The notes beneath the pieces were generated by a model. It was given only the letters and a program-made list of their open reading frames with translations, was not told the origin of the DNA and did not search any database. A DNA stretch of 57,982 nt, taken from contig NZ_JAKMUZ010000018.1 in NCBI RefSeq assembly GCF_027570195.1, positions 1 to 57,982 of the forward strand. The letters are read 5' to 3'. The stretch comes from Corynebacterium yonathiae. GTDB lineage: Bacteria; Actinomycetota; Actinomycetes; Mycobacteriales; Mycobacteriaceae. Below, in pieces: positions 19,090-45,691 of the stretch; the stretch's first letter is position 1, and each line of letters opens with the position of its first letter. The position numbers and the translations under genes are program-made.

Positions 19090-19101
19090 CCACGGAACAA
19101 T

Positions 19102-19174: not shown

Positions 19175-19183
19175 CAGCATGTA

Positions 19184-19342: not shown

Positions 19343-19530
19343 ATATCGTTGAAGACAACGGCTAAGCCAGTCTCGAAAAGGGGGGTGTTCCTATATAGGT
19401 TGTCAACTCCGTGGGTGGGCTTGTTGGGGGTGTGAAGGGTTTCTGCTTCGTCTCGTAGATGTTGTTTTGGGTACCTTGAGGAGCCGGTTGGGCTTGCTGT
19501 GCAATCGGCTTGGATGGGGGTCTGTTGGCT

Positions 19531-20739: not shown

Positions 20740-21084
20740 GGGTGTGTTCCTCCTAGCGATGAATTAGAAGTTGGACTATTTGAGCTTCATCGCTGGGGGT
20801 GGTCGGACATACTTAGTACTGGCATCTACATTACTGTGAGACCTCATACCACCTGGGCTGGGTCAGGTTCCTATTGAGCTGTTTGAGTATGTCACTGTCT
20901 TCGGCGGCATCACCCCCGGATCATTTTCAGACAGGGGCGGGAATAAGCCATACCGAAGCCAGCGACTAGTTCTACTGTCCTTTCAGACGGAGGGAACGGA
21001 AATAAACATAACCCGCCCAATCGGGTGGACAGGCTATGAATCTTCGGTGCTCTGAGGTGGAACTGCTAACAACGAAATGGGGGG
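20740..21084 (-). ncRNA. candidate IS110 bridge-RNA region, left copy
   Basis: IS110-group recombinases use a bridge RNA made from the non-coding end upstream of the transposase. Here that end is 345 nt and rich in paired segments. agcgatgaa (20755-20763) pairs with ttcatcgct (20786-20794), gacatact (20806-20813) with agtatgtc (20886-20893), and cttcgg (20899-20904) with ccgaag (20953-20958). There is also an acccg/cgggt hairpin near 21010. The RNA, its ends and its strand are inferred from family knowledge and these pairings only. Confidence 0.45.
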
Positions 21085-21126
21085 GAACGGGGGCAAAGTC
21101 AATAATTCGAGTCTGGCATAAGTTGA

Positions 21127-21145
21127 TAAGGATTGCCTAACCTAA
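21127..21145 (+). promoter_or_regulatory. DtxR/IdeR iron box of the cargo operon
   Basis: The 19 bases TAAGGATTGCCTAACCTAA match the DtxR/IdeR consensus TTAGGTTAGSCTAACCTAA at 16 of 19 positions by my count, with a perfect right half. The box lies between a TTGATA -35-like hexamer (21123-21128) and a TACTGT -10-like hexamer (21146-21151). Bound iron-loaded DtxR would therefore block RNA polymerase. The first gene starts at 21203. This predicts expression in iron starvation. Confidence 0.82.
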
Positions 21146-21202
21146 TACTGTTTCAAGTTATGGTCCCGATCGGGAATCGGCAACGGAAGCGAGGCGGCGA
21201 CG

Positions 21203-21874
21203 ATGAACAGAAAATGTGGATCGACCAGAGAACCCCTCTCCGGAGGGGGAGTCGGGGACGCGGGCCCGGACGGGACGGGCGACGGCGACGCGGTGGCGTC
21301 GCAGACGGACGACGGGCGGTTGGTACACGTCGCACCGGTCGCAGCGGGTGGCCGACCATCCACCCGCGATATGCTCGTCGCCGCCGCGATCGGCGTCGCG
21401 GGGTCTCTCGTCGTCGTGCCCCTGACCTACCTGCAGGTGTTCGCCGGCATCGCCCACGTTTATCTCGTCGCGGCGACGCTCGGGTTGTGGTTCCTGCAGT
21501 GCGTCGTTCCCCTCATCGTCGTCCGCAAGCCTGGCGCGAGCCTCATCGCGTGCCTTGCCATGGGCGTCGTGTCCGCGGCGACCACCCCGTTCGGCGTCGC
21601 CGCGATCGGGGCGCTGATCATGGAAGGATTGCTCATCGAGCTTCCGTTCATGGTCACCCTGTACCGGCGGTGGACGCGTCCCCAGTTCGTGGCGTCGGCG
21701 ATGTTGTTCTCCGCGATGATGGGAACGATGGCCCCGCGCGCAGTTGGCGTCAACTCGCCGACCACGCCCATGACCCTGATCAGCTTCGGCGTAGCCTTGG
21801 CATCGAGCCTGGTGTTTTTGGTCCTGGGCTTTGCCGTCGCAAAGGGTCTTCGCAGCCGCGAGGTCACCCGGTGA
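21203..21874 (+). CDS. ECF transporter S component-like membrane protein
   Basis: The 223-aa protein has a 45-residue hydrophilic N-terminus and then about six membrane helices (e.g. MLVAAAIGVAGSLVVVPLTYLQV and VFLVLGFAVAKGL). The pattern resembles substrate-binding S subunits of energy-coupling-factor transporters of the YkoE/MptD-like kind. It lies first in the operon, just behind the iron box. Its stop overlaps the GTG start of a fused ECF A-A-T protein (GTGA), so the two surely form one transporter. The ligand is likely the metallophore, its metal complex or a precursor; this is inferred from context only. Confidence 0.7.
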   Translation: MNRKCGSTREPLSGGGVGDAGPDGTGDGDAVASQTDDGRLVHVAPVAAGGRPSTRDMLVAAAIGVAGSLVVVPLTYLQVFAGIAHVYLVAATLGLWFLQCVVPLIVVRKPGASLIACLAMGVVSAATTPFGVAAIGALIMEGLLIELPFMVTLYRRWTRPQFVASAMLFSAMMGTMAPRAVGVNSPTTPMTLISFGVALASSLVFLVLGFAVAKGLRSREVTR

Positions 21875-24228
21875 CCGGCGGAGCACCCGTGTGCGCCGGT
21901 GCGACACGCGGGACGGCCCCGGCCCGGTTACGGGTCAGTGGCGCGGGCGTGCGGCACGCCGATGGGCGATGGGCACCTGACATGGTGGATCTCTCCTTCG
22001 ATTTCGGCACGATCAACGTCATTACGGGACCCGTGGGATGCGGAAAGACGAGCCTGGCCCACCTCATCGCTGGACTGATCCCCTCGCACATCCCCATCGA
22101 CCATGCCGGATCCGTGCATATCGTCGATGCCGACGGCACCGAATGCCCCGTGGACGGGGACCGGGTCACCTTCGTCGGGCAAGACCCAGCGACGCAGGTG
22201 CTCACGCTTCGAGTCGTCGATGACGTATCCATGGCCCTCGAGTTTTCCCTCGTGGAAGCTGACATCGTCGCCAAGCGATCAGCCGCGGCCCTGTCAGAGC
22301 TCGGGCTGTCAGAGCTCGCGGAGAAGGATCCGTGGGCTTTGTCGGGCGGGCAACGCCAGCGGATGGCCATCGCCGGTGCGGTGGCCAGTGCGCCGGAGGT
22401 CATGATCTTCGACGAGCCCGCGGCCCACGTCGACGAGGATGGTCGTCGGTCGCTGTTCGCCGCTATCCGTGAATTGCGGGCTCCGGGGCGCGTCATCCTG
22501 CTCATCGAGCACGACCTCCGCCCGTTTGACGGGTGGGTCGACACGGTGACAATCCTTGATGTGGACGGGAGCGTCGCCGCCCAACGAGCGCCGGAGGGCA
22601 TCGCGGTGAAGGGCATTGCGACGACGGCCGCGACCACCGGAACGCCGGACGACAGTACGCCGGGCACGGGAGCGCCGGACCGTCCCGGTCCGGACCGGCG
22701 GCGAAAGTCCCGGAGGGCCGGGAATGGCACCGATCCGGATTCGGAGGCGGATGCCGTTCCGCTGCTGGCCTTGACCGGAGCCAACGTGGCCCGGGGCGGG
22801 GAGCGGATCCTGAACGGGGCTGATCTGACACTGGAACGGGGCGAGATCCATGCTCTAGTCGGCGCCAACGGAGCCGGTAAGTCCACCTTGCTGGCGGTGC
22901 TGTCGGGCCAGATGAAGGCGGGAGCGGACATACGGATCGACGGCGAGTCCGCCCGGCGCGCCCCCGACGCCTTCGCGTCGTGGGCGTTCCAGAACCCCGA
23001 GCACCAGTTCACCCGTGCGACCGTCGCCGCGGAAATCGCCTCCGCGCTGGCCCGCACGGACCCGCACGGACCACTCGGCGCCGATGAGCTGAGGAAACTG
23101 CGGGAAGCCTTGTGCCCCCGGGCACTTGACCCTGTCTCGCCGTTCGTCCTGTCGGGTGGACAGAAAAGACTGTTGGGAATCTTCCTAGCGGCGGCGGCCA
23201 ATCGCCGTTTGCTGCTTCTCGACGAGCCGTTGGCGCACCTGGATTCGCCGAGCTCGCGCATCGTACTGGATGCGCTGACGGAATACGCCGGGGCCGGCGG
23301 AACCGTTGTGTTCACGTGCCACGACCGCCGTGCCGCGCGAACGTGGGCGGATCGGGCGAGCATCGTCGCCGAAGGGAAGGTCGCCTGGTCTGGTCCCGCG
23401 GTCGACGTGCCGGCTGCCCCGGAGCCGTCCCGGCGGGATCGCGCACTGCCCGCGGCCGGCGCAGGGACGTCCGGGAATGAAAACCCCTGGACCAGTGAAT
23501 CCGCCTCTCGAAGACGCGCAGGGTTGAACGCCATCACGATTGTCGCGGCGGTGATGCTCGTCGTCGCCGCCGGGCTACTCTCCGGCGGAGACGCCGTTGT
23601 CGTGCTGACGGTGGTCGCGTTCCTCGCACTCGCTGCGATCGCGGAACGCGACGTTCGGGCGACGGCAGGGAAGGTCCTCCTCGTCCTGTTGAGCGGGGTG
23701 TTCTTCGGCTTGATCGGGTGGCGCTCCGAGTTCTACGGAGGTGGGGATGCGGCGGAGGCCGTCCGCCACGGCATCCATCACGGACTGCTGTTGACGGCCG
23801 TGTTCGCGGGGACGGTCCTGGTCTCCGCGTGCATGCGCGTCGAGGAGCTTTTCGACGCCATGGTGCAACGCCTCCGGGTGCCTTACACATGGTGCACCAT
23901 AGCGATTTCCGGGGTGAGCATCGCGGCGTTCCTGCGCAGCGAAATCCCCCAGCTGACATGGGCGATTAGATTGCGCTCGATGCGACCAGGGCAGTTTTTC
24001 CGCTCCGGTTTCATTCGCGCGACGACGCCCGCGCGCATCGCCTTCCCCTTGTTCGTCAGCGCCGTGCGCGGCGCCGAAAAGCTGTCCCTGACCCTGGCGA
24101 TGCGCAACTTCGGCCGCCATCCGCGGCGTACCTTCCGCACCGATCACCCCTGGCGAGTGCGTGACGGTTTCGCGGCCGCAGCGTCCGCCGCGGCCTTCGT
24201 TGCCGCCCTGGTGTCCGCAGTGACTTGA
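21871..24228 (+). CDS. fused ECF transporter: two ATPase domains plus T domain
   Basis: One 785-aa chain holds the whole energy-coupling module. ATPase 1 has Walker A GPVGCGKTSL near residue 52, signature LSGGQRQRMAI near 155 and Walker B VMIFDEPAAH. A Pro/Gly-rich linker follows. ATPase 2 has GANGAGKSTL near 330, LSGGQKRLLGI near 426 and LLLLDEPLAH. From about residue 550 a T-component membrane domain follows, with about five helices and coupling segments such as RLRSMRPGQFFRSG. I choose the GTG at 21871 because it overlaps the upstream stop; the frame is open further upstream, but that stretch lies over the S-subunit gene. A, A' and T are usually separate proteins, so the triple fusion is notable. 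Confidence 0.82.
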   Translation: MTGGAPVCAGATRGTAPARLRVSGAGVRHADGRWAPDMVDLSFDFGTINVITGPVGCGKTSLAHLIAGLIPSHIPIDHAGSVHIVDADGTECPVDGDRVTFVGQDPATQVLTLRVVDDVSMALEFSLVEADIVAKRSAAALSELGLSELAEKDPWALSGGQRQRMAIAGAVASAPEVMIFDEPAAHVDEDGRRSLFAAIRELRAPGRVILLIEHDLRPFDGWVDTVTILDVDGSVAAQRAPEGIAVKGIATTAATTGTPDDSTPGTGAPDRPGPDRRRKSRRAGNGTDPDSEADAVPLLALTGANVARGGERILNGADLTLERGEIHALVGANGAGKSTLLAVLSGQMKAGADIRIDGESARRAPDAFASWAFQNPEHQFTRATVAAEIASALARTDPHGPLGADELRKLREALCPRALDPVSPFVLSGGQKRLLGIFLAAAANRRLLLLDEPLAHLDSPSSRIVLDALTEYAGAGGTVVFTCHDRRAARTWADRASIVAEGKVAWSGPAVDVPAAPEPSRRDRALPAAGAGTSGNENPWTSESASRRRAGLNAITIVAAVMLVVAAGLLSGGDAVVVLTVVAFLALAAIAERDVRATAGKVLLVLLSGVFFGLIGWRSEFYGGGDAAEAVRHGIHHGLLLTAVFAGTVLVSACMRVEELFDAMVQRLRVPYTWCTIAISGVSIAAFLRSEIPQLTWAIRLRSMRPGQFFRSGFIRATTPARIAFPLFVSAVRGAEKLSLTLAMRNFGRHPRRTFRTDHPWRVRDGFAAAASAAAFVAALVSAVT

Positions 24229-24402
24229 CGGGCACCCGGAACCGGCGGGCCCCGAGCCCGCGAGCGTTTCCGAGCCTGTGCGGAGACGCGCCCCACCCAG
24301 TTGCTTCACCCCTTCAACCCTTCAGACACATCCTCCGGGTCACGCCATGCGGGCCCGGTCCGCCCGGCACCTGCATGGCGCCGACAACCGAAAGAGGTAC
24401 CA

Positions 24403-26175
24403 GTGAACACGATCCGGACCATCAGCGACGTGCTTCGGGACAAGGCCGATGAGACGAAGAAGGGGATCACCTTCGTCGAGAACCGGCGGGACGTCTTCGT
24501 CCCGTACAGCCGGGTCCATGCGGAGGCGGTGGCGGTTGCGACTCGGTTGGCCGAAGCCGGCATCGGCCCCGACGACCGCATAATCTTCCAGGTTTCGGAG
24601 AACCGCGGGCTCATCCGGGCGTTCTGGGGCTGCGTCTACGTCGGCGCGGTTCCGGCGCTTGCGCCGCCGGTGTCGGGCCCGGCTGACGTCGACAGGGTGC
24701 GGACGCTCTTGGACATGATGCCCGGGGCCCCGATCCTGGTCGATGAACGCAGTCACACGCTGCTCACCGGCGCAAACGGTGCCGTAGTCGTGGACGAGGA
24801 CCGGCTGCTCGACGTGTCCATAGTCAATGACGCCGCCGCGGAACCGGGGGCGGCGATGCCGGGTGATGCTGAATCGGACTTCTCTCAGCCGGGGGACGTG
24901 GATTCCGGGGAGGGCGCCGGCGCGGTCCCCGCGTTCCCGGTGCGGGGTGGGACGGGCGGCGAAGCCCTTATCCAGTTTTCGTCCGGTTCCACGGGATCGC
25001 CGAAGGGCGTCATCGTAACCAACGAGTCCGTGCTGAACGGTCTGCGCGCGACGATCCCACGCCACGCGCACCGGTACGAGAACAAGATGCTCACGTGGCT
25101 GCCTTTGACCCACAACCTTTCGCTGATTGGCTTCCACGTCTACGCCCTTTTCCGTGGGTATGACCAGGTGTTGCTGCCGGTTTCCGAGGTGATCGCCGAT
25201 CCCCGGAGTTGGTTCGAGGCCGTGACCAGGCACCGGCCGACGGTGACCGTGTGCCCGAACTTCGCGTTCAAGCACTTCCTGCGCCATCTCGAGCGCCGGC
25301 CCCTCGGGCCCGACCACGGTTATGACTTCTCCAACGTCCAGAAGCTGATGAGCGGTTCTGAACCCATCGACGCTCCATTGGCCCGGAAGTTCCTCGCGGC
25401 GATGTCCGCCATGGGCCTCCGGGAGGATGCCCTGACCTCCGCCTACGGAATGTCTGAAGCTTGCCTGCTGGTCACGACCCGGGACATCTACTCGGGTCTG
25501 TCCACGGTGCGGCTTGACCGGAAGGGCATCACCATGGGGCAGCGTTTCGAGGACATCGAGAGCGAGTCTGGAGCTGAGTTCGTCGCCTTGGGCAAGGCCG
25601 TCCCGGGGATCTCGTTGACCATCCGCGATGACGGGGGCGGGGTCCTCGGCGACGGCACCGTCGGTGAAATCCACATCGCCGGCGCTCCGATGACCCGCGC
25701 CGCGATCACGGCAGAGGGGATCGTGGAGCACGAGCTTACCGATGACGGGACGTTCGCCACGGGGGACATGGGCATTCTCCGCGACGGCGAGTTGTTCGTC
25801 CTCGGCCGGAAGAAGGACATCATCTTCGTCAACGGCCGGAACTACTATTCGGCCGATTTGGAAGCCGTGCTGGAGAATGTGCTTGACCGCGATGTCGCCG
25901 TTCTCGGCCGGAGCAACCCAGCCACGGGCGAAGAGGAGATCGCCGTGTTCCTGGCCAGGCAGACCCCGACCGATCGTGCGGCCGACGGTGCGACCGGTGT
26001 CGGGCAATCGGACGTGGATGAAACTCCGATCGATGAACAGGCGGTGGCCCGTTCCGCGATGACCGAGCTGATGCGCGTCGCCGGGGTGCCCGCTTCCCGG
26101 GTTCTGTGGGTCGACGAGCTGCCCGTCGCGTCTAACGGCAAGAAGCTCCGCCGCAAGCTCGAGGCTCTGCTCTGA
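24403..26175 (+). CDS. fatty-acyl/aryl-AMP ligase (starter-unit loading)
   Basis: This adenylate-forming enzyme (590 aa) should activate the carboxylic-acid starter and load it on the N-terminal carrier domain of the NRPS. Motifs are FSSGSTGSPKGVIVTN (phosphate loop), SAYGMSEACLL and ATGDMGILRDGELFVLGRKKDIIFVNGRN. The last, with NGRNYYSADLEAVLENV, resembles fatty-acyl-AMP ligases more than salicyl-AMP ligases such as YbtE/PchD. The GTG start has aaagagg 5 nt upstream. The NRPS begins 4 nt after the stop. The substrate may be a fatty, benzoic or other acid. No salicylate synthase gene is present in the cargo. Confidence 0.82.
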   Translation: MNTIRTISDVLRDKADETKKGITFVENRRDVFVPYSRVHAEAVAVATRLAEAGIGPDDRIIFQVSENRGLIRAFWGCVYVGAVPALAPPVSGPADVDRVRTLLDMMPGAPILVDERSHTLLTGANGAVVVDEDRLLDVSIVNDAAAEPGAAMPGDAESDFSQPGDVDSGEGAGAVPAFPVRGGTGGEALIQFSSGSTGSPKGVIVTNESVLNGLRATIPRHAHRYENKMLTWLPLTHNLSLIGFHVYALFRGYDQVLLPVSEVIADPRSWFEAVTRHRPTVTVCPNFAFKHFLRHLERRPLGPDHGYDFSNVQKLMSGSEPIDAPLARKFLAAMSAMGLREDALTSAYGMSEACLLVTTRDIYSGLSTVRLDRKGITMGQRFEDIESESGAEFVALGKAVPGISLTIRDDGGGVLGDGTVGEIHIAGAPMTRAAITAEGIVEHELTDDGTFATGDMGILRDGELFVLGRKKDIIFVNGRNYYSADLEAVLENVLDRDVAVLGRSNPATGEEEIAVFLARQTPTDRAADGATGVGQSDVDETPIDEQAVARSAMTELMRVAGVPASRVLWVDELPVASNGKKLRRKLEALL

Positions 26176-26179
26176 GGCG

Positions 26180-29100
26180 ATGACCATGACCAATGAAACG
26201 ATCGCGCCGGCCGTCGCATCTACCGCCGTGGGAGGAACCCGCACCGGGGTCCGAGTCGCCCCCGAACGGCTGTCGGAGTCCATCGCCGACGCCATCGGCG
26301 TGCACCTGGATTCGGCGGACGTGAAACTCCGCGACCACATCCCGAACTCCCTGACTTTCCTCCAGATGTTGCTGGCGCTGGAGGATGAGTACGGGGTCAG
26401 CATCGATTACGCGGCGATGGACCCCGGGGCCACGGTCGCTGATTTGGCGGCCACCATCGACGCGGCCCGGGGTGGCGCTGATGCCGGATCTGCCGCAGGC
26501 GCCGCTGCCGACCCCGCTGCGGCGACGGATGAGTCGGATGACGGCGGGGCCGGCAAAAATGGGGCCGATCCCGCGGATGCGGTCCCGCTCAATCCGATCC
26601 AGACCGCCTATCTGCTCGGCGCGGACGAGGACATCGAGCTTGGCGGCCAAGCGACGTACATCTACGCGGAATCCCGGCACGACCATCCGCTGCCGCAGGT
26701 GGAGGAGGCCGTGCAGGCGGTCTTCGGGCGTCACGACGTGCTGTTCCATCGGCTCGACGTCGATGCCGGGGTCTTGAGCCCGACCGGCGCGTGCCTCGCC
26801 ACCGTCGAGGTAGTCGGGTCCGGCGACGATGTCGACGCGGCGGTGGGGGAGATCCGTCGGGACATGCGAACCGCGGCGCGATCGTCGAACGAGGACGGTC
26901 CCATGGTCGCCGCGAGGCTGCTCGCAGATGCGGGCGGGTGCAGGATGTTCATCTACTTCAACATGATCGTCATGGATGCGGGTTCGGTGTACCTGTTCTT
27001 CGACGAGCTCGAATCCTTGCTGGCCGGGGAGTCGCCGGCTCCGGCTTCCAGATATGGGGATGCCGTGGCGGCAATCTCCGCGCGCCGGCGCGACGGGAAA
27101 CGGCCCGAGGACCTCGCCTATTGGGAGAAGAAGGCCGCAGATCTGCCGCGGCGCCCGGAGTTCCCGGCGGCCGTGGAGGGTGGCGACGATTGGTCGACCC
27201 GGCGCTTGGGCACGGTGCTTGACGCGGAGGTCACCGCCAAGCTCGGCGAACGTGCCCGCCGCATTGGAGTTACCCTGTCGTCGCTGGTGATGGCCGTCAA
27301 CGCCGCCGTCGTCTGCAGGTGGCTGCCCGAATCCGCGTTGACGGTCAATGTGACTGTCAGCGAACGCAGCGGCCTCGCTGCGGGCACGAGGGTGATGGGA
27401 GATTTCACTTCATCGATGCTCGTCGGCGTCGACGCCGGGAGAGCCGCGACCATCGACGGGTTGGCGGAGGTGATCGACCTGGACATCCGCGAAGGGCTGT
27501 CCCACCGCGGCGTTTCCGGTGTGGAGGTACTACAGCGATTCCTTCGGGACGCGGCCAATCAGTCCCAGGCCACTGCTCCGGTGGTGTTCACCAGCTACCT
27601 CGGCGGCGAGCGGGGAAGCGGGCGCAGCCCGGTCATCGAACGCGTCTACACGCAAACCGCGCAGGTGTGCCTCGACATTCAGGTGATGCCGGCATCGGGC
27701 GGGATGGTGTTGTCGTGGGACGTGGTCGACGATTACTTCCCTGCGGTAGATGCGATGTTCGGGGCCGTTGCGGAGGCCCTGGACGTGGTGGCGGAGGGTG
27801 GAGAGGCTCTGCCCATCCGTCATGCGGAGACGGAGGGGGCCGTCGCCCGCTACAACGACGCTGCGGGACCGATCCACGATGACACCCTGGTTTCGCTTGT
27901 CGAAGCCGCATGCGCGGCGACTCCGGACGCACCGGCCGTGCGCCTCGCTGCCCGGGGCATCTCGTACACCTACGCCGAGGTCTGGGCCCGGGCCGGACGC
28001 ATCGCCCGCCAACTCTCGGATTCCGGCGTCGGGGCGGGGGATGCGGTGATCGTGCGCTACACCAAGCATCCCGACGACATCGTCAACATGGTCGGCGTAT
28101 TGCGTGCGGGAGCCGCATTCGTGCCTGTCGACGCGGGCATGCCGACCCAGCGACAAGAATACGTCGTGGAAGCCTCAGGTGCGGCGGGCCCGATTCTGGA
28201 CACCGGCATGATCGATGAACTGGACCAAAGCGGAGTGGCGGGCGTCGGCAAGCCCGCAGCCGCGGAAGTCTGCGACCGCGCGGGCAGCGCGGGTGCTCAC
28301 TCTTCGCCCGGCACTGCCCCTGACGACCTTGCCTACGTCATCTTCACCTCGGGGACCACGGGCCGTCCAAAGGGTGTGCGGATCAGTCATCGCAACTGCG
28401 TCAACACCATCCTCGACGTGAACCGGCGGTATGGAGTCACCTCCGCCGATCGCATCATCGGATTGTCGTCGCTGGGATTCGACCTGTCGGTCTACGACGT
28501 GTTCGGTGCGTTCGCGGCAGGCGCGACGGTGACGATGGTCGGAGACGAACGCGACGCCGATGAAATCCTCGACGTCTTGCGGGAAGAGCGGGTCACGCTG
28601 TGGAACTCCGCGCCCGCCCTGTTGGAGCTCGCCCTGGTCCGGGCGGCGGACGACGACGTGTTCCCGGATGTGCGCACCGTATTGCTCAGCGGCGATCGCA
28701 TCGCAGCGGGGCTTCCGGCACGCGCCATGGCCATGTTCCCGAACGCGTCGATCAATAGCCTCGGCGGTGCGACCGAAGGAAGCATTTGGTCCATCCACTG
28801 CCCGCTGCAACGCGACAGCCTGGAAAACCGCATTCCCTACGGGTACCCGCTGGCGAACCAGGGCATCCACGTGCTCGCGCCCGACGGGGTGCATTGCCCC
28901 GTTGGCGTGCCGGGGGAAATCCACATCAGCGGTCTCGGGGTCGCGCAGGGGTACGCGGCCGATCCGGAGCGGACCGCTGCCGCCTTCGGGCATGTCCCAG
29001 GTATCGGGCGCTGCTACCGGACCGGAGACGTGGGCATGTTCAATGCGGAGGGTTTTGTGGAATTTCTCGGCCGCCGCGATCGTCAGGTGAAAATCGCGGG

Positions 29101-32506: not shown

Positions 32507-33677
32507 CCGACGAAACGGCGGGGAAGCACGGGACCGCGACGGGGGCGAACCCGTGAAAGTGCTGGTGGCCGGAGGTACCGGCGTCACCGGACGGCTCGTC
32601 CGGGGGATGCTCGGCGTCGTCGATGGGATTGAGCTGGCCTACACTTCCCGGCAGAAACCGGACGATGGCCCGGGGCGGCACTTCCCGCTGAGGATCGCCG
32701 CCGGCCACAACGAGATCTGCAGGGTCTTCCACAAACACGATTGGGTGGTCAACTGCACCGGCCCGTTCGAGGTGCATGCAGACTCACTCGCCCGTGCTTG
32801 CATCGACTCAGGCACCGGGTACATCGACGTCAACGATTCGATCGACGCCCGCCGCGCAATCATGGCCCTCGACGGGGATGCTCGGCGGGAGGGGGTTCCC
32901 GTGCTCACCGGGTTCGGCCTGTGCCCGGGCTTGTCGACGGCCCTGTTGATGCTCGGGGCCCGCGCTGCGGGGGCCGAAGAGGTCCGCGATGTGCGGGTCG
33001 ATCTGCGAATTGGCGCCGACCAGGAATCCGGGGCCGCGTCCGTCGAGTCGATGTTCCGGACCATTCGCGGCGGATACCGCGCGATGCTCGGCGGCGCCAT
33101 CGTCGAAGTGCGGCGCAACCTGGTGTCGTCGCAAAGCGGAATCGGCTACGAATGCCCGGACATCGACGTCGTACGCGAGGTGTGCCCCTCGATCCTCGGA
33201 TATTCCTACCACGTCGCCTTCGATGCTCTCCCCGATGAGTCGGTGGAGAAGATCCGCACGTCGAGACTGTACGCGATGCCCGTCGTCTCCGGTCTGCTCG
33301 CCCGTCTCGGGGCGGCCGTGACGTCGCGGAAGGCGCGGGCGAAGGGCACTCCGCAACCCGCCGAGCTGGTCGTCGCACTGTCCTCCGCCGGCGCGGGCGA
33401 TGCGGGGTCGGCGGCCGAGACAACCGTCGTCCGGGCGACTGGCCCGGGTTCCTACAAAATGACCGCGGCCATTGCCGCCGCCACCGTTGCGTCGGTCATG
33501 GGGAAGCCGGTCGCGCCGGGGTGCCGGGATCTCGTCGGCCACCCCCGGCTCCTCGAACCGGTCCTCGCCTTCGCCCGCGATGCGGGCATCCATATCGAAA
33601 CGCCGCATGACAACCTGACCACGGGGCCACTGCCGGCAGCGGCCCACTGCGACACCAAAGAAAAGGAGAAACGATGA
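32499..33677 (+). CDS. saccharopine-dehydrogenase-like reductase
   Basis: This 392-aa protein begins, after a short charged lead, with VKVLVAGGTGVTGRLVRGML, an NAD(P)-binding Rossmann fingerprint of the saccharopine-dehydrogenase-like family. It continues with WVVNCTGPFEVHADSLARACIDSGTGYIDVND, typical of that family. Yersiniabactin and pyochelin loci have a separate thiazolinyl imide reductase (YbtU/PchG), which I do not see here, so this enzyme may reduce one thiazoline to thiazolidine. That role is inference. The GTG start overlaps the NRPS stop by 8 nt and has an aaaggag site. Its own stop overlaps the next gene (ATGA). Confidence 0.75.
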   Translation: MTDRRNGGEARDRDGGEPVKVLVAGGTGVTGRLVRGMLGVVDGIELAYTSRQKPDDGPGRHFPLRIAAGHNEICRVFHKHDWVVNCTGPFEVHADSLARACIDSGTGYIDVNDSIDARRAIMALDGDARREGVPVLTGFGLCPGLSTALLMLGARAAGAEEVRDVRVDLRIGADQESGAASVESMFRTIRGGYRAMLGGAIVEVRRNLVSSQSGIGYECPDIDVVREVCPSILGYSYHVAFDALPDESVEKIRTSRLYAMPVVSGLLARLGAAVTSRKARAKGTPQPAELVVALSSAGAGDAGSAAETTVVRATGPGSYKMTAAIAAATVASVMGKPVAPGCRDLVGHPRLLEPVLAFARDAGIHIETPHDNLTTGPLPAAAHCDTKEKEKR

Positions 33678-34717
33678 CGGATCAAGCTGAACGGGGTGCG
33701 GCGATCGTCGTCCGCGACCTCACGAAGAGCTACCCGATTGCGGGCAAAGCCGGCACCGCGCCCGAAGGCGGGGCAGGTGCTCCGCCGGACGGCGGGCGTA
33801 AGGGAAAGCGCGGCGCCCGGATGCGCAAGCATGTGCTCGACGGCGTGAGTTTCACCGTGCCCGCCGGGTCGATCGTGTCGTTCCTCGGCCACAACGGCGC
33901 AGGCAAGACCACCCTCATCCGAATCCTGTCGACGCTCATCACCGCAGACTCCGGCGAGGTGAGCATCTTCTCGCGCGATGTGAAAGAGGATCCGGCGGGC
34001 GTGCGCGCCGACATTGCCACCACCGGCCAATTCGCGGCGATCGACGAGAACCTCACCGGCCGGGAGAACCTGGAGTTCTTCGGGCGTCTGCGCGGACTCG
34101 ACCGCGCCGACGCGGCCGCCCGCGCGACGGAACTGCTCGCGCAATTCTCGCTCGCGGACAGTGCCTCGACGTTGGCGTCGGCCTATTCGGGTGGTATGCG
34201 GCGCCGCCTCGACATCGCCGCGTCGCTGTGCGTCGTGCCCAGGTTGCTGTTCCTCGACGAACCCACGACGGGGCTGGACCCGGTCAGCCGCGAAGAGTTG
34301 TGGGGCTTCATCCGGCAACTGCGGGACGACGGAATGACCCTGGTGCTGACCACCCAGTACCTGGAAGAGGCGGAGGCGCTGGCAGACCACGTCCATCTGC
34401 TCAAGGACCGCCGCATCGTCGCCAGCGGAACGCCGGAGGAATTGCGTCGCGACTTCGGGTCGCACGTGCTCCGCGTGTCCTTCGCCACCGCCGCCGGGGC
34501 GGAGGCATTCGCCCGCTGCCTAAGGGGAGCGTGTCTGGACCGCGCCCGCGTCGCGGGGAAGATGGTGTCCCTCGACGTCGACCCCGGACCGCAGGTCCTC
34601 GAGGCGGTGGCGCGGGCGATGGAGGCCTCGGAAGCGTTGCCGGATTCGCTGAGCGTGTCGCCGCCCACCCTTAACGAGGTGTTCATATCGATGAACGCGG
34701 GGGGTGCGGCGCGATGA
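33674..34717 (+). CDS. ABC-2 type exporter ATPase (DrrA-like)
   Basis: The 347-aa ATPase has Walker A GHNGAGKTTLIRILSTL, signature YSGGMRRRLDIAASL and Walker B LLFLDEPTTGLDPVSREELW. The TTQYLEEAEALADHVHLL stretch is typical of the DrrA/daunorubicin-resistance branch. The C-terminal 100 residues form the accessory domain of that branch. Residues 12-50 contain an inserted Gly/Lys-rich stretch. With the two permeases downstream it forms a three-part exporter, probably for the metallophore or for self-protection. It is coupled by ATGA to the genes on both sides. Confidence 0.87.
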   Translation: MTDQAERGAAIVVRDLTKSYPIAGKAGTAPEGGAGAPPDGGRKGKRGARMRKHVLDGVSFTVPAGSIVSFLGHNGAGKTTLIRILSTLITADSGEVSIFSRDVKEDPAGVRADIATTGQFAAIDENLTGRENLEFFGRLRGLDRADAAARATELLAQFSLADSASTLASAYSGGMRRRLDIAASLCVVPRLLFLDEPTTGLDPVSREELWGFIRQLRDDGMTLVLTTQYLEEAEALADHVHLLKDRRIVASGTPEELRRDFGSHVLRVSFATAAGAEAFARCLRGACLDRARVAGKMVSLDVDPGPQVLEAVARAMEASEALPDSLSVSPPTLNEVFISMNAGGAAR

Positions 34718-35466
34718 GTGCGACGTCGGTCGCGGCGTTCCTCCGTCGGGATCTGCTGCTGTTGCGACGCAACACCGCGTCGCTGATCTCCATGTTCGTC
34801 GTTCCTCCCCTCTTCCTGCTGTGCCTGTACGCGGTGTTTGGGTACTCAGCAGGGCAATCCGGCTTCGGGTACCTGCGTTTCGTGCTCGGCGGCTGCCTGT
34901 TCCAGGCGGCGATGTTCACCGCCGCGGCGTCGGCGATGGCGGTGGGACAGGACGTCGAATCCGGGCTCGTCGACCGTGTGCGCGTGTTGCCCGGGGCCAC
35001 GGGCGGCTATGTCGCCGGCAGGCTCGCCACCGATGTGCTGCGGATGTCCGCGTCGATCGCGGCGCTGCTGATCGTCGCGTGGGCCTGTGGCCTCGACATG
35101 GCTCTCGGTGACGTCGCGTGGACAGTCCTGTGGTCACTGCTCGCTGCCGCGGTCCTGTCCCTGGTCACGGACGGGGTGATCCTGATGGTGCCCGCTCCGG
35201 TGTCGACGGCCTCATCGATCCAGGCGCTGGAAATGCTGCTGCTCATGTTCTCCACCGCGTTCATTCCGACGACCGCTGTGGACGGCTCCCTGCGCGACAT
35301 CGTGCGCCACATGCCTTTTTCGCCGGTGATCGAGGTGATCAGGGCGGCGTCCCCGGGCGCCTTCCCGAATCACGCCGGGGAAGAGGCCGCCCTGTGGCTC
35401 GGTGTCGCGACGGTCGTCGGAATCGTCCTGTTCATCCGCCTGTTCACCTCGAGGAGCGAATCATGA
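34714..35466 (+). CDS. ABC-2 type permease 1 (DrrB-like)
   Basis: The 250-aa membrane protein has about six helices. The N-terminal FLRRDLLLLRRNTASLISMFVVPPLFLLCLYAVFGY is followed by GQDVESGLVDRVRVLPGATGGYVAGRLATD, the amphipathic loop usual in DrrB-type permeases. It is coupled to the ATPase upstream and to permease 2 by ATGA overlaps. It should pair with permease 2 as the membrane channel of the exporter. Confidence 0.85.
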   Translation: MSATSVAAFLRRDLLLLRRNTASLISMFVVPPLFLLCLYAVFGYSAGQSGFGYLRFVLGGCLFQAAMFTAAASAMAVGQDVESGLVDRVRVLPGATGGYVAGRLATDVLRMSASIAALLIVAWACGLDMALGDVAWTVLWSLLAAAVLSLVTDGVILMVPAPVSTASSIQALEMLLLMFSTAFIPTTAVDGSLRDIVRHMPFSPVIEVIRAASPGAFPNHAGEEAALWLGVATVVGIVLFIRLFTSRSES

Positions 35467-36200
35467 TCGACGCCATTTTCGTGCATCTGCGGCGCATCGT
35501 CCACACTTGGCTGCGGCGCCCTGACTTCTGGTTCATGACGTTCATTGCTCCGCTCGTGTACCTGTTCATCGTCAACCGCATGTTCGGTAGCCTGGTCAGG
35601 CAGCTCACCGGAGAGTTCGAACTCCGGAACGCGGTCATCCTTGTCGTAACGGCGTGGGCGTTCATCTTGGCCATCACGGGATCGTCCACCGTGTTCGTTG
35701 AACGCAGCAATGGCCTCCACGAGCGGTTGATCACAATGCCGGCACCGTACGCGGCCGTGCCGACCGCACGGATAATCGCCGAGTTCATCCGGATCATGGC
35801 GATGACGATCGTCGTCGCGGCGGTGGCCGCCTTGCTTTCCGACGGCCCCCTGGAGGTGTCCTGGTGGTGGAGGATCACGGTGACCGGCGCGATGGTTGCC
35901 GCGGCGGCCGCATGCACCGGCACGTACATCGCGTTCTCCATCACCAGCCCCCAGGGATCCGTGGCCCTTATCCCGTTGATAATCGTTGCGATGTTCGTCA
36001 ACACGGTGCTCATGCCCGCCGACCACTTCCGTCCCCTCCTGCGCGGAATCGCCGGGCACACCCCCGTATCCGCGGCCGGCGAGGCCGTCAACGGTACCGG
36101 GGCTGCGGGTCTGGTGGTCTGCGCGGCCTGGTTCTTTGGTATCGCCGTGCTCGCGGCGTGGGGCATCGCCGTGAAAACGAGGCCGGGGGAGTCTGCATGA
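35463..36200 (+). CDS. ABC-2 type permease 2 (DrrC-like)
   Basis: The 245-aa protein starts MIDAIFVHLRRIVHTWLRRPDFWFMTFIAPLVYLFIVNRMFG and carries about six helices. FVERSNGLHERLITMPAPYAAVPTARIIAEFIR is the family loop. It is the second membrane half of the Drr-type exporter. I use the ATG at 35463, which overlaps the permease 1 stop. It ends in ATGA with a 26-codon reading frame. Confidence 0.85.
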   Translation: MIDAIFVHLRRIVHTWLRRPDFWFMTFIAPLVYLFIVNRMFGSLVRQLTGEFELRNAVILVVTAWAFILAITGSSTVFVERSNGLHERLITMPAPYAAVPTARIIAEFIRIMAMTIVVAAVAALLSDGPLEVSWWWRITVTGAMVAAAAACTGTYIAFSITSPQGSVALIPLIIVAMFVNTVLMPADHFRPLLRGIAGHTPVSAAGEAVNGTGAAGLVVCAAWFFGIAVLAAWGIAVKTRPGESA

Positions 36201-36277
36201 CGGCCCGCGAATCCGAGCATCTAACCCGAAACCGCCGCGTGGACGCGGCCCACACACCCGGAGACAGAACCAGATGA
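36197..36277 (+). CDS. 26-aa linker reading frame between permease and methyltransferase
   Basis: An ATG at 36197 overlaps the permease 2 stop (ATGA). The frame runs 26 codons (MTARESEHLTRNRRVDAAHTPG...) to a TGA at 36275-36277 that itself overlaps the methyltransferase ATG (ATGA). It fills exactly what would otherwise be the only sizeable gap in this part of the operon. It may be a translated coupling peptide that carries ribosomes across, or chance. No family is recognised. Confidence 0.35.
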   Translation: MTARESEHLTRNRRVDAAHTPGDRTR

Positions 36278-36957
36278 AGTCGATCGCCCAGATCGTCCAG
36301 AACAACCGCAGGCTCCTCGCGGCCTACGAGGACAAGGTCCAGCCGAGGTTCCTAAGCCGCTATGCGCGCGAACCGATGGACGCCGCCGCCGTGTACCGGA
36401 AGCTCCGTGCGCTGGATCCCGGGCCGGATGCGCCGGCCCGGGTCCTCGACCTCGGTTGCGGAACCGGGTGGCTCGCCCGCACGCTCGCCGCTGAGTCTCG
36501 CTATCGCAGGGCGAACATCGTCGGCTACGACCTGTCGCCCAATGCGATCCGCATCGCCCGCGAACGCGCCGCCGCCGACGGGCTCGGGGCCCGGACGGAA
36601 TTCCACGTTGCCGACATCCTCACGCCGCTCGCGGGAGAGCCCGGCGGGGCCTGTGAAATCTGGGTGTGTGGCGCGCTCCACCAAATGAAGGATGCGGGAG
36701 CCGCGCTCGGCAGGGTCTCCGGGCTGCTCGCCGACAGCGGCATCGCTTACGTGCAGACGTTCGTCGAGGATCCCGACGTGAACGAGCGGGTCGACATGGC
36801 CGTCATGGCGAAGATGGGCCACCGGGTGTTCCGGGGCAGCGAGCTCGAGGACCTCGCCGAAGCCAACGGGCTGAAGCTGGACGGAGCCTCACGCGCCGGC
36901 ATGGTGTATTTCTGCACTCTCGCGAAGAAAAGCGCGATCGGGGAGGCGGGGAAGTGA
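36274..36957 (+). CDS. SAM-dependent class I methyltransferase
   Basis: This 227-aa protein has SAM motif I as RVLDLGCGTGWLARTLA near residue 52 and then NIVGYDLSPNAIRIARERAAADGL (motif II region). It belongs to the Rossmann-fold methyltransferases. In yersiniabactin and pyochelin pathways methylation is done by domains inside the synthases; here a free enzyme could N-, O- or S-methylate the product, for example the thiazolidine nitrogen. The target is inferred only from context. It is followed by a GTGA overlap to the next gene. Confidence 0.82.
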   Translation: MKSIAQIVQNNRRLLAAYEDKVQPRFLSRYAREPMDAAAVYRKLRALDPGPDAPARVLDLGCGTGWLARTLAAESRYRRANIVGYDLSPNAIRIARERAAADGLGARTEFHVADILTPLAGEPGGACEIWVCGALHQMKDAGAALGRVSGLLADSGIAYVQTFVEDPDVNERVDMAVMAKMGHRVFRGSELEDLAEANGLKLDGASRAGMVYFCTLAKKSAIGEAGK

Positions 36958-38732
36958 GCGCCGTGGACGGGACCGTCGGCCCGTGGTCGCTGCTCGCCCC
37001 GATCCGGACCCGGATGCGTGCGGTGGTCGCGTTGTCCGTCCTGTCGTCGGTGGCTACCGTCGCTTCGCTGGTCGGCATCATCGACATCGCGATGACGTAC
37101 CCGGAGGCCCCGGTGCATCGGACGTGGTTGGCCGTGGTTGTCATCGTCGTCGCCGCGACGGTGCGAATGGCTGCGGACGGCGCCGCCGGCATGCTCTCGC
37201 ACCGGGCGGATAACGACCTGCAGCTCCACCTCCGGCGCCGGTTGGTTGCCCATATCCGGAAGCTGCCGCTGGGTTGGCTGGACGCCCGGCGCTCGTCGGG
37301 GATCATCGGGTCCGTTGAGAAGGACGTCGCGGCTGTCCACCAGCTCATGGGCCACACCGTCGGCGAGACCGTGGTGGCGGTGCTGGTTCCCCTGCTTTCC
37401 CTCATCGCGCTCGTCGCGGTCGATTGGCGGATCGCGGCGGTGGCGGTCGTCCCGGTGCTGGTCACCTTCGCCCTGATGGGCGTGATGATTTCGCGCGGAG
37501 CCGGTCTTCAGCGCGACTACGAGCGAGCCTCTGAAAAAGTGACGGCTGCGGTCATCGAGTTGGTGCGCGGCATCCCGGTGATGAAGTCCTTCGGACGCGC
37601 CAGCCAGGGCGCGGGCCGCTACGATGCCGCGGCGTCGTCGTTCGTCCGCGCGTGGTCCGCCTGGTCCCGGCAGTCGAACATCTATCTCGGGCTCATCGAC
37701 GTGGTGACGTCCCCGATCACGGTCCTCGCAGTGGTGTGCGGCGCCGGCCTCGCTTTGAGGGACACCGCGGGCGGCAAACCGGAGGGTCTCGTCGCCGGGC
37801 TGGTTCTCGGCCTTGGACTCTCCGCGGCGATCGTGAGGGTGGCTATGAACTCCGAACCCATCATCGCGGGGATCGCCGCCCTGAAGTCCATCGCGGAGGT
37901 GCTGGGCACGCCGCCGATCACCGAGTCCGCCGAGCCGGTGCCCGTGCACGGAGGCGCGCTCGAGGTCCGGAACCTGGTCTTCTCCTACGGGGATGGGCCG
38001 CGGGTCCTCGACGGGATGTCCGCGACGTTCGAATCGGGGGCCCTCACGGCGCTGGTGGGACCCTCCGGTTCCGGAAAGTCCACCGTCGCCCGGCTGTTGG
38101 CGCGTTTCCACGACCCTGTCGAAGGCTCGGTGCTGCTGGGCGGCGACGATCTTCGCGACATCGCCGTGCGCGACGTGCACCGTTCGGTGTCGGTGGTGTT
38201 CCAGGATCCGCAGTTGCTCACGCTGCCCTTGCGGGAGAACATCCGGCTGGCCAGGAGAGACGCCACCGACGGCGAAATCATGGCGGCCGCGAAGCTCGCG
38301 AACCTCGATACGGTCATCGCGGCGCTGCCGAAGGGCCTGGATTCGGTGGTCAACGTCGACGTAACCTTTTCCGGTGGTGAGGCGCAGCGCGTGGCCATCG
38401 CGAGGTCGATTGTCACGGACGCGCCGGTGCTCATCTTCGACGAGGCAACCGCTTACGCGGATCCGGCTTCCGAGGCCCTCATTCAGTCCGCAATCGAGCG
38501 TTTGGCTCGTTCGCGGACGGTGATCGTGATTGCGCACAGATTGAGCACGATCCGCAACGCTGACCGCATCCTCGTTCTCGATGGGGGAGCGGTCGCGGAG
38601 GCGGGCACCCACGACGAGTTGCTTGCGCGCGGTGGCCGCTACCGGGATCTGTGGCGCGCGTTCGCCCTCGACGACGAACCATCCGCCCCGCGGGGCACTG
38701 AAGCAGACGATGAAAAGGCAGGGAACCGATGA
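36954..38732 (+). CDS. ABC transporter, TMD-NBD half 1 (YbtP/IrtA-like)
   Basis: This is a 592-aa half-transporter with an exporter-type six-helix domain (LLAPIRTRMRAVVALSVLSSVATVASLVGII...). The ATPase has Walker A GPSGSGKSTVARLLARFHD, signature FSGGEAQRVAIARSIV and Walker B VLIFDEATAYADP. With its partner downstream it matches the layout of YbtP-YbtQ and IrtA-IrtB, exporter-fold pairs that import ferric siderophores. I see no N-terminal siderophore-reductase domain as in IrtA. The GTG at 36954 overlaps the methyltransferase stop. Import rather than export is inferred from the pathway. Confidence 0.83.
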   Translation: MSAVDGTVGPWSLLAPIRTRMRAVVALSVLSSVATVASLVGIIDIAMTYPEAPVHRTWLAVVVIVVAATVRMAADGAAGMLSHRADNDLQLHLRRRLVAHIRKLPLGWLDARRSSGIIGSVEKDVAAVHQLMGHTVGETVVAVLVPLLSLIALVAVDWRIAAVAVVPVLVTFALMGVMISRGAGLQRDYERASEKVTAAVIELVRGIPVMKSFGRASQGAGRYDAAASSFVRAWSAWSRQSNIYLGLIDVVTSPITVLAVVCGAGLALRDTAGGKPEGLVAGLVLGLGLSAAIVRVAMNSEPIIAGIAALKSIAEVLGTPPITESAEPVPVHGGALEVRNLVFSYGDGPRVLDGMSATFESGALTALVGPSGSGKSTVARLLARFHDPVEGSVLLGGDDLRDIAVRDVHRSVSVVFQDPQLLTLPLRENIRLARRDATDGEIMAAAKLANLDTVIAALPKGLDSVVNVDVTFSGGEAQRVAIARSIVTDAPVLIFDEATAYADPASEALIQSAIERLARSRTVIVIAHRLSTIRNADRILVLDGGAVAEAGTHDELLARGGRYRDLWRAFALDDEPSAPRGTEADDEKAGNR

Positions 38733-40462
38733 TCCGGGACTTGTGGTCGATGACGGATCGGCACTCGAAGATGACGCTGGCGTGGCTCATTGCGTTGGCC
38801 GCGCTTGCCGCGCTGGCACAGGGAGCGGCGTTCGTCGCGCTGCTGCCGCTGCTGTCGGCTCTGGCCGAGGGAGATGATGCGACGGCGTGGCGTTTCACCG
38901 GCGTCATCGCCGGCCTCGCGGCCGCCCATGCGGTGCTGTCCCTCGCCGCGGGGACGGTCGGCAGGGCGAATTCCGCAGCGGTGCTGTCGTCCCTGCTGCG
39001 TTCCCTGGGCGAACGCGTGCTGACGTTGCCACTCGGGTACGTCACCAAGTCCACGGCCGGCCGCTTTTCGGAGATGGCGTCTTCGGGCATGGCGTTCGCG
39101 GCGTCCGTGCCGCACGTGATCCTGCGGCCCGTCATCGCCGCTGTGGTTACGCCGACCGTCATCGCTCTCGGAATTCTGGCGATGGATTGGCGCGTCGGGT
39201 TGGTTCTCGTCGCGTCGGCGCCGGTGCTCTTCTTCGCCTACCGGGCCATTGGCCGGGTCGGCGGGGAGTCGGACGAAGCGCATGCTGACGCCGTCGCTGC
39301 CGTCTCCGGCAGGCTGATCGAGTTCACCCGCGGCCAGCAGGTGATTCGCGCCGCGGGCGACGGTTCGGCGGCGGACGCGATGGTGGATGAGGCGATCCAG
39401 GCCCAACACGATGCGTTCGCGAAGGCGACGTCGACGCAAGGCGCGGCCATCGGACGGTTGGGCTCGGTCGTCCATGCGGTGTTCACGGCGGCGGTGGTCG
39501 TCGCCGTGGCGGTCGCCGCGACGGGCGGGATGTCACCGGCGCATTTGGCGCCGATGCTCATTGTGGTCGTCCAGTTCACCGGACCGATCACCACGGCGGG
39601 AGCGTTGTCCGGCGGTTTCGGCGCGGGCCGCAACACGTTGGCTGCGCTGCGTGAGCTGCGGGCGATCCCCGTCCTTCCCGAGCCTGCCGCACCGGAGCTG
39701 CCCGACGGGCATGACGTGGAGTTCCGCGGCGTGAGCTTCGGGTACGGGGAGAAGAAGGTCCTCGACGGCGTCAGCTTCCGTGCGCCTCAGGGAGCGCTGG
39801 TCGCCATAGTGGGACCTTCGGGGGCGGGCAAGACGACGGTCATGCGGCTGCTGTCGCGGTTTCATGATCCGGACTCGGGGGAGATCCTCATTGGCGGGGT
39901 GCCCTTGCCTCGGATCGGCACCGACGGCGTGAACTCGCTGGTGACCCCGGTGTTCCAGGAGACGTTCCTCTTCGACGCGTCCGTGCGGGACAACGTGGTC
40001 TTCGCCGACCCCGGATTCGGTTCCGGGCCCGGCGACGGAGACCGCTTGCGCGAGGCCGCCCGGCGATCCGGGGTGGACCGCATCGTGGAGCTGCTGCCTT
40101 CCGGGTGGGATAACCCGGTGGGGGAGGAGGGGACGCTGCTGTCGGGAGGCGAGCGGCAGCGCGTCGCCATCGCCCGGGCGCTTCTGAAGGATTCCCCGGT
40201 GGTGCTTTTCGACGAGCCGACGTCCTCGCTGGATGCGGCCACTGAGCGGGCGATTGTTGGCACGATGGAAGCGTTGCGCGGCGATCGCACCGTGATCGTC
40301 GTCGCCCATCGCCTGCACACCGTCCGCGATGCCGACCTCATCGTCGTGCTTTCGGAGGACGGGACGGTCGCAGAACGGGGCACGCACGATGAATTGCTGG
40401 CGAAGGGCGGCCGCTACGCCGAGTCGTGGACGTGCCGGACGGGAGGCTCCCCGGGCGCCTGA
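38729..40462 (+). CDS. ABC transporter, TMD-NBD half 2 (YbtQ/IrtB-like)
   Basis: The 577-aa partner half-transporter starts MIRDLWSMTDRHSKMTLAWLIALAALAALAQGAAFVALLPLL. It has Walker A GPSGAGKTTVMRLLSRFHD, signature LSGGERQRVAIARALL and Walker B VVLFDEPTSSLD. It is the last gene of the coupled operon. Its end overlaps the remains of a lipase gene on the other strand by about 49 nt, so the operon stops exactly at older donor DNA. Confidence 0.85.
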   Translation: MIRDLWSMTDRHSKMTLAWLIALAALAALAQGAAFVALLPLLSALAEGDDATAWRFTGVIAGLAAAHAVLSLAAGTVGRANSAAVLSSLLRSLGERVLTLPLGYVTKSTAGRFSEMASSGMAFAASVPHVILRPVIAAVVTPTVIALGILAMDWRVGLVLVASAPVLFFAYRAIGRVGGESDEAHADAVAAVSGRLIEFTRGQQVIRAAGDGSAADAMVDEAIQAQHDAFAKATSTQGAAIGRLGSVVHAVFTAAVVVAVAVAATGGMSPAHLAPMLIVVVQFTGPITTAGALSGGFGAGRNTLAALRELRAIPVLPEPAAPELPDGHDVEFRGVSFGYGEKKVLDGVSFRAPQGALVAIVGPSGAGKTTVMRLLSRFHDPDSGEILIGGVPLPRIGTDGVNSLVTPVFQETFLFDASVRDNVVFADPGFGSGPGDGDRLREAARRSGVDRIVELLPSGWDNPVGEEGTLLSGGERQRVAIARALLKDSPVVLFDEPTSSLDAATERAIVGTMEALRGDRTVIVVAHRLHTVRDADLIVVLSEDGTVAERGTHDELLAKGGRYAESWTCRTGGSPGA

Positions 40463-41333: not shown

Positions 41334-41535
41334 CGGTCGGGAAACCGCCGTCCGACAGCGACGAGGGGATTCTCGTTACCTCGTCGGGGGTGTTCCTATA
41401 TAGGTTGTCAACTCCGTGGGTGGGCTTGTTGGGGGTGTGAAGGGTTTCTGCTTCGTCTCGTAGATGTTGTTTTGGGTACCTTGAGGAGCCGGTTGGGCTT
41501 GCTGTGCAATCGGCTTGGATGGGGGTCTGTTGGCT

Positions 41536-45682: not shown

Positions 45683-45691
45683 CAGTATGAA

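Follow-up and report, generated by a model that had tools for sequence, protein, structure and literature searches.

A candidate equibactin-like metallophore operon on mobile DNA in Corynebacterium, repeatedly reduced to probable importer-only forms

The stretch of 57,982 nucleotides from Corynebacterium yonathiae analysed here (contig NZ_JAKMUZ010000018.1, hereafter the window) carries eleven forward-strand genes between positions 21203 and 40462, encoding in order a putative S component, a fused EcfA-EcfA'-EcfT protein of an energy-coupling factor (ECF) importer, an AMP ligase, a non-ribosomal peptide synthetase (NRPS), a reductase, DrrA-, DrrB- and DrrC-like proteins, a methyltransferase, and IrtA-like and IrtB-like ATP-binding cassette (ABC) halves. 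The genes mostly overlap from stop to start or abut, and thus form one coupled operon. It is best read as a new, equibactin-like metallophore operon that has spread horizontally and has repeatedly been reduced to importer-only (‘cheater’) forms. Judged from sequence, the operon probably makes, releases and retakes a cysteine-derived metallophore, and carriers with an intact IrtAB pair that lack a full synthetase would be non-producers, which likely use a neighbour's metallophore. An earlier sequence-only reading of this DNA had described a DtxR box followed by one coupled operon with an ECF importer, an AMP ligase, a reductase and a methyltransferase; all of these parts were found, so that its observation of the operon is confirmed, while its interpretation is supported in part.

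A survey of 242 Corynebacterium genomes was carried out with five probes (reductase, DrrC, IrtB, NRPS, and ECF). IrtB was found at 94-100% protein identity in 27 genomes, DrrC at 93% or more in 21, ECF at 91% or more in 16 (in one of them in two pieces), and a full NRPS at 95% or more in six (G000, G239, G220, G005, G006, and G145), of which G000 and G239 represent one species. Since the 27 carriers were defined by IrtB, its presence in all of them is true by definition, and the fair contrast lies within the union of 28 genomes, where IrtB is present in 27, ECF in 16, and the full NRPS in 6. All 16 ECF carriers also have IrtB. Among the 27 carriers (26 genomes and the window), IrtA and IrtB are each intact in 27, DrrA, DrrB and DrrC in 21 each, the methyltransferase in 18, S and ECF in 15 each, the reductase in 8, and the ligase and NRPS in 6 each. 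G224, with a 3.3-kb contig that holds part of the ligase and NRPS genes without IrtB, was omitted from the gene counts; G086, whose contig breaks off within the reductase gene and whose assembly shows no near-identical NRPS, was counted among those without a full synthetase and left out of the junctions described below. The complete synthetase gene is missing in 21 of the 27 carrier assemblies while IrtAB is intact, and therefore most carriers probably live off the product of their neighbours. The cheater genotype, in which synthesis is lost and the cognate uptake is kept, is present in gene content, with IrtAB as the presumed uptake route. The NRPS occurs at 95-96% identity in C. amycolatum SK46 and in a protein cluster named C. 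simulans.

The loss of synthesis can be followed at nucleotide level. In window coordinates, position 24465 is joined to 31885 in G136, 24421 to 32337 in G010, 24569 to 32755 in G160 and G075, 24649 to 33383 in G073, 25250 to 33412 in G112, G236, G083 and G056 (25240 in the alignment of G112), 24631 to 32376 with further gaps in G189, 21385 to 33077 in G223 and G221, and 21259 to 36199 in G021, which gives at least eight distinct internal junctions. Base matches of 1-22, some of them imperfect, lie at the junctions inspected (all but that of G189), with G021 as the exception. In G135, G154, G033, G172, G159, G146, and G187, the left part of the operon is replaced by other DNA. Similar scars exist among public proteins: P0241 consists of ligase residues 1-58 joined to reductase residues 88-392, and P0244 joins S to reductase residue 190; the size of P0241 was not taken as a count, since intact and scarred proteins may fall together into one cluster at 90%. 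From the mapped junctions and the scars, it follows that the importer-only forms derive from complete operons.

After this loss, IrtAB appears to have stayed under purifying selection, with ratios of nonsynonymous to synonymous substitution (dN/dS) like those of producers, a pattern that later recombination could blur. In the group that shares the 25250/33412 junction, dN/dS is 0.17-0.27 for IrtA in five of six pairs and 0.18-0.33 for IrtB; it is 0.20-0.38 for the other two shared junctions (G160/G075 and G223/G221), and 0.06-0.25 (IrtA) and 0.20-0.41 (IrtB) among five genomes that keep IrtAB alone. Well-diverged pairs of producers give 0.17-0.23 for IrtA and 0.22-0.31 for IrtB. DrrA gives 0-0.18 within the non-producer groups. 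These values bear on the possibility that the truncated operons are neutral debris, eroded from the 5' side by deletions next to insertion sequences (IS), with IrtAB simply the last to go. The IS110-like ends that lie directly left of the operon in many loci, and the 3' end as the part that is always kept, would agree with such erosion. However, in the ten non-producers with S-ECF the deletions are internal and leave it in place, with both genes intact in eight, all 27 carriers have open IrtAB frames, non-producer dN/dS lies at 0.06-0.41 save for one pair at 0.54, and other DtxR boxes are present where the operon's own promoter is lost, all of which makes neutral decay highly improbable.

The retained pair could instead have lost its link to the product of this operon and now serve some other siderophore, for instance staphyloferrin from a neighbour or a further thiazoline siderophore. 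One study of nasal corynebacteria reports that most of those tested made no siderophore yet used staphyloferrins (PMC11296517). Against this, non-producer IrtB is 94-100% identical to that of the window and under constraint similar to that in producers, which gives no sign of a changed substrate, and a change of partner therefore seems rather unlikely.

Non-producer alleles have moved between species, as has the complete operon. The 26 other carriers all have IrtAB DNA that matches the window at 95-100%, whereas their gyrB DNA matches at as little as 74% (74-94% over the 24 carriers from other species for which a near-full-length gyrB could be compared); therefore, the operon has moved between species. 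The same holds for its reduced forms, since pairwise comparison of G112, G236, G083, and G056, which share one deletion allele, gives 75-94% for gyrB and 96-99% for IrtAB, and the five IrtAB-only genomes give 80-86% and 98%, respectively. The remaining shared junctions join closer relatives, with gyrB at 91% for G160/G075 and 97% for G223/G221.

The operon is preceded by a DtxR/IdeR-type box on the forward strand (21127-21145), which matches 15 of 19 positions of the consensus and is the best 19-mer of the window on the one strand scanned. None of 2000 first-order random sequences of 118 bp reached 15/19, the maximum being 14. Among loci with their own promoter, a box of 12-15/19 is present in all 17 scanned. 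In the seven loci without it, another box of 16-17/19 lies ~60-354 bp ahead of the homology in every case, within a region longer than that of the random control. Overall, each of the 24 loci scanned has a DtxR-type box (12-17/19) upstream of the genes it has kept. Regulation of the iron type, as proposed by the sequence-only reading, is therefore supported by a box that is kept in relatives, though it is predicted from such boxes; no Pfam match to a DtxR-like regulator was found among the island open reading frames (ORFs) scanned. It could be argued that the operon serves another metal, e.g. zinc, since metallophores of the heterocyclisation (Cy) type can bind zinc, as in coelibactin, a Zur-regulated example. 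However, the boxes at the operon are of the DtxR/IdeR type, and a relative from another family, the Propionibacteriaceae locus L008, has two perfect ones (19/19), one ahead of the ligase and one ahead of the S gene; a metal other than iron is thus very unlikely.

The synthesis genes point to a non-salicylate starter. The stand-alone AMP ligase (24403-26175, forward strand; start taken by us as the GTG after AAAGAGG) is, by sequence, closest to a keto-acid-selecting adenylation (A) domain, McyG, and fatty acyl-AMP ligases (FAALs), and its predicted fold (mean pLDDT 82.9) is likewise closest to these. Long-chain acyl ligases are its best family models, all under their cut-offs, and its nearest proteins beyond the close group are named acyl-CoA synthetase, NRPS, or fatty acyl-AMP ligase. 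After the TH motif, N-x-S is present in 11 aligned members (39% identity or more) and D-M-G in 7 more distant ones. The enzyme does not group with salicylate-type ligases such as DhbE and YbtE: salicylate ligase 5wm2 scores 49 bits against 186 for the top match, and ranks 48th by structure, after McyG, keto-acid A domains, and FAALs. A salicylate starter was rejected on both the sequence and the fold ranking, and a salicyl-type product is unlikely.

The NRPS (26180-32506, forward strand) has two condensation-type (Cy) domains, three carrier domains, one A domain, and one thioesterase (TE), in the order CP-Cy1-A(Cys)-PCP-Cy2-PCP-TE (CP and PCP, carrier domains), and retains the carrier serines, the DxxxxD of Cy2, and the GxSxG of the TE according to domain matches and motif alignment. 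Its A-domain pocket, with positions placed by eye, reads DLYNLSLIWK, which we take to be a cysteine code; six of the ten positions are invariant over 14 homologues, and one (L) is mostly M. The two Cy domains and the cysteine A domain named earlier are borne out by the domain matches and this pocket. The reductase (32499-33677, forward strand) has a domain match and a structure model (mean pLDDT 87) with the fold of lysine, carboxyspermidine, and saccharopine dehydrogenases, which are enzymes acting on C-N bonds; no thiazolinyl-imine reductase of the Irp3 type is named among its best 50 structural matches, and this assignment was dropped. The class I methyltransferase (36274-36957, forward strand; domain match) is intact in all six carriers with a full NRPS. 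It is shortened to 118-201 of 227 residues in the non-producers G112, G010, G154, and G189, as would be expected if the enzyme serves synthesis. Therefore, the product is likely a non-salicylate, two-cysteine metallophore, as predicted from these genes.

All of the transport genes lie on the forward strand. The ECF unit begins with a putative S component of 223 residues (21203-21874), assigned from its position, its overlap with the ECF ATPase gene, and ~50% identity in four distant loci; it has no NCBIfam match. The following 785-residue protein (21871-24228) contains two ABC_tran domains and CbiQ, and its best NCBIfam model, ECF_ATPase, falls under its cut-off. A DrrA-like ATPase (33674-34717; domain and family matches), a DrrB-like permease (34714-35466; domain match), and a DrrC-like permease (35463-36200; domain and family matches) are followed, after the methyltransferase, by an IrtA/YbtP-like half without the siderophore-interaction domain (36954-38732) and an IrtB/YbtQ-like half (38729-40462), both assigned by comparison with solved structures. 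Among half-transporter chains in the best 60 matches, the first half scores 335 bits with IrtA, 277 with YbtP, and 225 with Sav1866, and the second half 285 with YbtQ and 275 with IrtB, the next half-transporter outside these families reaching 209; higher scores go to P-glycoproteins and other full transporters, in which two halves add up. The kinship with YbtPQ and IrtAB suggested earlier thus holds for half-transporters. As for the Drr-type exporter of the sequence-only reading, the three genes are present; however, DrrABC is kept in 15 of the 21 genomes without a full synthetase, which casts doubt on a role dedicated to exporting the product.

The same retention pattern is in keeping with another explanation, in which IrtAB and DrrABC both pump out, or give immunity to, a harmful NRPS product or a related compound of neighbours, and are kept for protection and not for iron. 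Both transporters have exporter folds, EqbKL of the equibactin system is suggested to act in efflux (PMC3672683), and the loci L110 and L008 manage without a full IrtAB match. On the other hand, both halves are closer to the importers IrtA/IrtB and YbtP/YbtQ than to other half-transporters, and the boxes ahead of the retained genes in 24 of 24 loci include the seven with a replaced promoter. We consider a purely protective role unlikely.

A scheme for the operon as a metallophore system can be potentially described as follows. The ligase would load a fatty, aryl-alkyl, or keto acid onto the first carrier domain. According to the domain order, the single cysteine A domain would then load both PCPs, and the Cy domains would condense and cyclise two cysteines. 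The saccharopine-dehydrogenase-fold enzyme may reduce one C=N bond, the methyltransferase may methylate, and the TE would release the acid. Similarity and retention suggest that the IrtAB-like pair imports the metal complex, with the ECF unit as a second route. More speculatively, DrrABC may return the ligand to the outside once it has been emptied, and such recycling would explain its retention by non-producers. The remaining steps are read from the genomes: deletions remove synthesis, transfer takes place from species to species, and IrtAB stays under purifying selection thereafter. In a bolder version, held with somewhat less than even confidence, the genus may harbour a producer/cheater network on one mobile operon, with at least eight excisions of synthesis, moving importer-only alleles, and promoter-less lineages under another DtxR box; the product may form a new chemical class, in which a lipid or aryl-alkyl starter of the FAAL type is joined to two cysteine rings, and DrrABC may be a recycling pump that users need although they produce none of it.

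Several observations weigh against the reading of a self-made and shared metallophore retaken through IrtAB. Retention of Drr in non-producers has no explanation if it is a simple exporter. In Cy1 (NRPS residue 261), the first Asp of the DxxxxD motif is Asn in 13 of 14 homologues and Ala in one; because of this altered motif, the bis-thiazoline chelator claimed by the sequence-only reading stands as to the two Cy domains and the cysteine A domain, and its pair of rings stays a prediction. One of the six IrtA pairs in the 25250/33412 group has a dN/dS of 0.54, with few changes, and the dN/dS groups may include later recombination and in some cases hold few substitutions. The box of G021 (12/19) is the lowest of the own-promoter loci, and those of three distant Corynebacterium operons (12-13/19) are matched by 4, 3, and 37 of 200 random stretches. 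At five of seven coding-coding junctions (G021 aside), the scar frame stays open as far as the original stop codon, which overlaps the start of the following gene; this would occur by chance with a probability of ~0.05 by our own arithmetic, and is only weakly beyond chance. L110 and L008, the latter a Propionibacteriaceae metagenome-assembled genome (MAG), have S and ECF and no full-length IrtAB match in the sequence examined, so that import there may run mainly through the ECF unit, which weakens the step of import through IrtAB; matches of DrrA and IrtA in L008 were ruled out as cross-matches to its ECF ATPases. Finally, in equibactin it is EqbHIJ, and not the YbtPQ-like EqbKL, that is needed for iron import (PMC3672683).

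Beyond the close carriers, complete distant operons are present in L116 and L118, two of the distant Corynebacterium loci scanned for boxes, in which every gene from S to IrtB is found at 28-50% identity. The reductase is found at E ≤ 1e-25 in one of 348 genomes sampled from the order, namely the source genome itself. Relatives found outside the genus include L008, partial MAG proteins of Propionibacteriaceae, Bifidobacteriaceae, and Acidipropionibacterium, a Gordonia ligase, and metagenome proteins.

The operon lies on an island (21085-41385) flanked by two identical direct repeats of 1704 bp with IS110-family transposase ORFs. The left copy (19381-21084) and the right copy (41386-43089; DEDD_Tnp_IS110 and Transposase_20 matches) are both on the reverse strand, and in each the transposase is split into two overlapping ORFs (20398-20739 and 19740-20480 in the left copy). 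No further full copy of this IS was found in the assembly (54 contigs). GC content per 2-kb step is 66-69% within the island and 52-63% outside. The inserted unit with both IS copies spans ~19381-43089, and six of six relatives without the operon (gyrB 92-93%) pass directly from ~19.3-19.4 kb to ~43.1 kb in window coordinates, with both flanks abutting in G106. Cargo between two copies of one IS, together with empty sites in relatives, corresponds to an IS110 composite layout. A dnaA gene and a recF-like gene lie left of the island, where gyrB and gyrA were assigned from position and size; the gyrB stretch was matched in 241 of 242 Corynebacterium genomes. The earlier proposal of foreign DNA at the chromosome origin is thus supported by the nearby dnaA and the empty sites. 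The extent given by the sequence-only reading (21085-40462) is right for the operon, whereas the end of the insert is corrected to 41385, and a lipase-like remnant and the IS copies are added. This remnant (40463-41385, reverse strand; six-frame reading, family judged by eye) is interrupted by stops and adjoins the right IS copy; its stretch ~40922-41191 is gone from G220, G221, and G073.

In G223 (seen on the left side) and G220 (seen on the right), the operon occupies the same chromosomal place and adjoins a shortened IS copy; in G220, ~4 kb of other DNA separates the tRNA genes from the operon. Two tRNA-Ala stretches (19098-19217 and 45606-45725) are 96% identical and occur around the empty sites as well, which makes them look native, unlike attachment repeats of the island. 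A second IS110-like end sequence, near-identical across species, abuts the left side of the operon in L101, L102, L104, L112-L115, and L121, and in L114 and L121 a transposase-like ORF beside it (family judged by eye) reads away from the operon. Over-extended starts account for a 1031-residue ORF at 21133 and long ORFs at 35118 and 36666; the first was considered as a four-part fusion that includes the S component and was ruled out, since the S gene is in another frame. Carriage on plasmids was likewise rejected: the island had no match among plasmid records, a single record matched the IS over 10% of its length, and the NRPS matches in plasmids were below 60% only.

If these proposals hold, the operon points to an undescribed metallophore, and offers a testable genetic route to the use of others' siderophores, as described for nasal corynebacteria (PMC11296517). 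The mapped junctions, together with producers and importer-only relatives that have near-identical importers, some at the same chromosomal site, would form a rare natural series in which the evolution of public-good cheating, and its spread from species to species, could be measured.

Among known systems, yersiniabactin (Irp1/Irp2, YbtPQ) shares the transporter pair and a domain order like that of HMWP2, which is carrier-Cy-A-PCP-Cy-PCP; the operon differs in that it has no polyketide synthase part, no salicylate ligase or synthase, a reductase of another fold, and a TE on the same protein. Pyochelin (PchD-G) follows the same logic of a starter, two cysteines, a reductase, methylation, and a TE, whereas the present operon has a single NRPS with a single A domain, and its ligase belongs to another group. 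IrtAB and YbtPQ likewise consist of two exporter-fold halves in the same order and are the best half-transporter matches in the PDB, while the IrtA-like half here lacks the siderophore-interaction domain.

The closest described locus is equibactin, compared here by description and not by direct alignment of sequences. The sequence-only reading held that the operon does not match the yersiniabactin, pyochelin or corynebactin (ciu) loci; no published description of it was found in a literature search that included two corynebacterial surveys of biosynthetic gene clusters (PMC12542688 and PMC12188740, their figures and supplements being outside its scope), and equibactin had been missed. The locus eqbA-N of Streptococcus equi is mobile and under DtxR-type control, with a Cy NRPS, a YbtPQ-like pair, a second importer, a salicylate ligase, and the saccharopine-dehydrogenase-like EqbM (PMC3672683); an equibactin-related set that includes an ECF gene is reported on an island of Clostridioides difficile RT023 (PMC6814731), and a further relative occurs in Clostridium kluyveri. 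Both systems share mobile DNA, a Cy NRPS with a single A domain, metal-dependent repression (here predicted from the box), the absence of a salicylate synthase from the locus, a YbtPQ-like pair with a second importer, and a saccharopine-dehydrogenase-like enzyme. They differ in that one TE-ended NRPS here stands for EqbE and EqbG, a FAAL/McyG-like ligase for the YbtE-like salicylate ligase, the ECF ATPases and T part are fused, DrrABC and a stand-alone methyltransferase are added, and no regulator, phosphopantetheinyl transferase, or type II TE was seen in the operon. Equibactin uptake, as described there, needs the second importer, whereas here the retention pattern suggests IrtAB, and L110 and L008 suggest ECF. 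Importer-only derivatives in many species are a further difference from equibactin. Non-producers that retain an uptake gene are known among pseudomonads for pyoverdine (PMC10393863); synthesis is lost and uptake kept in both cases, but here this extends across a Gram-positive genus, the operon involved moves horizontally, and one deletion allele is common to species with gyrB identity down to 75%.

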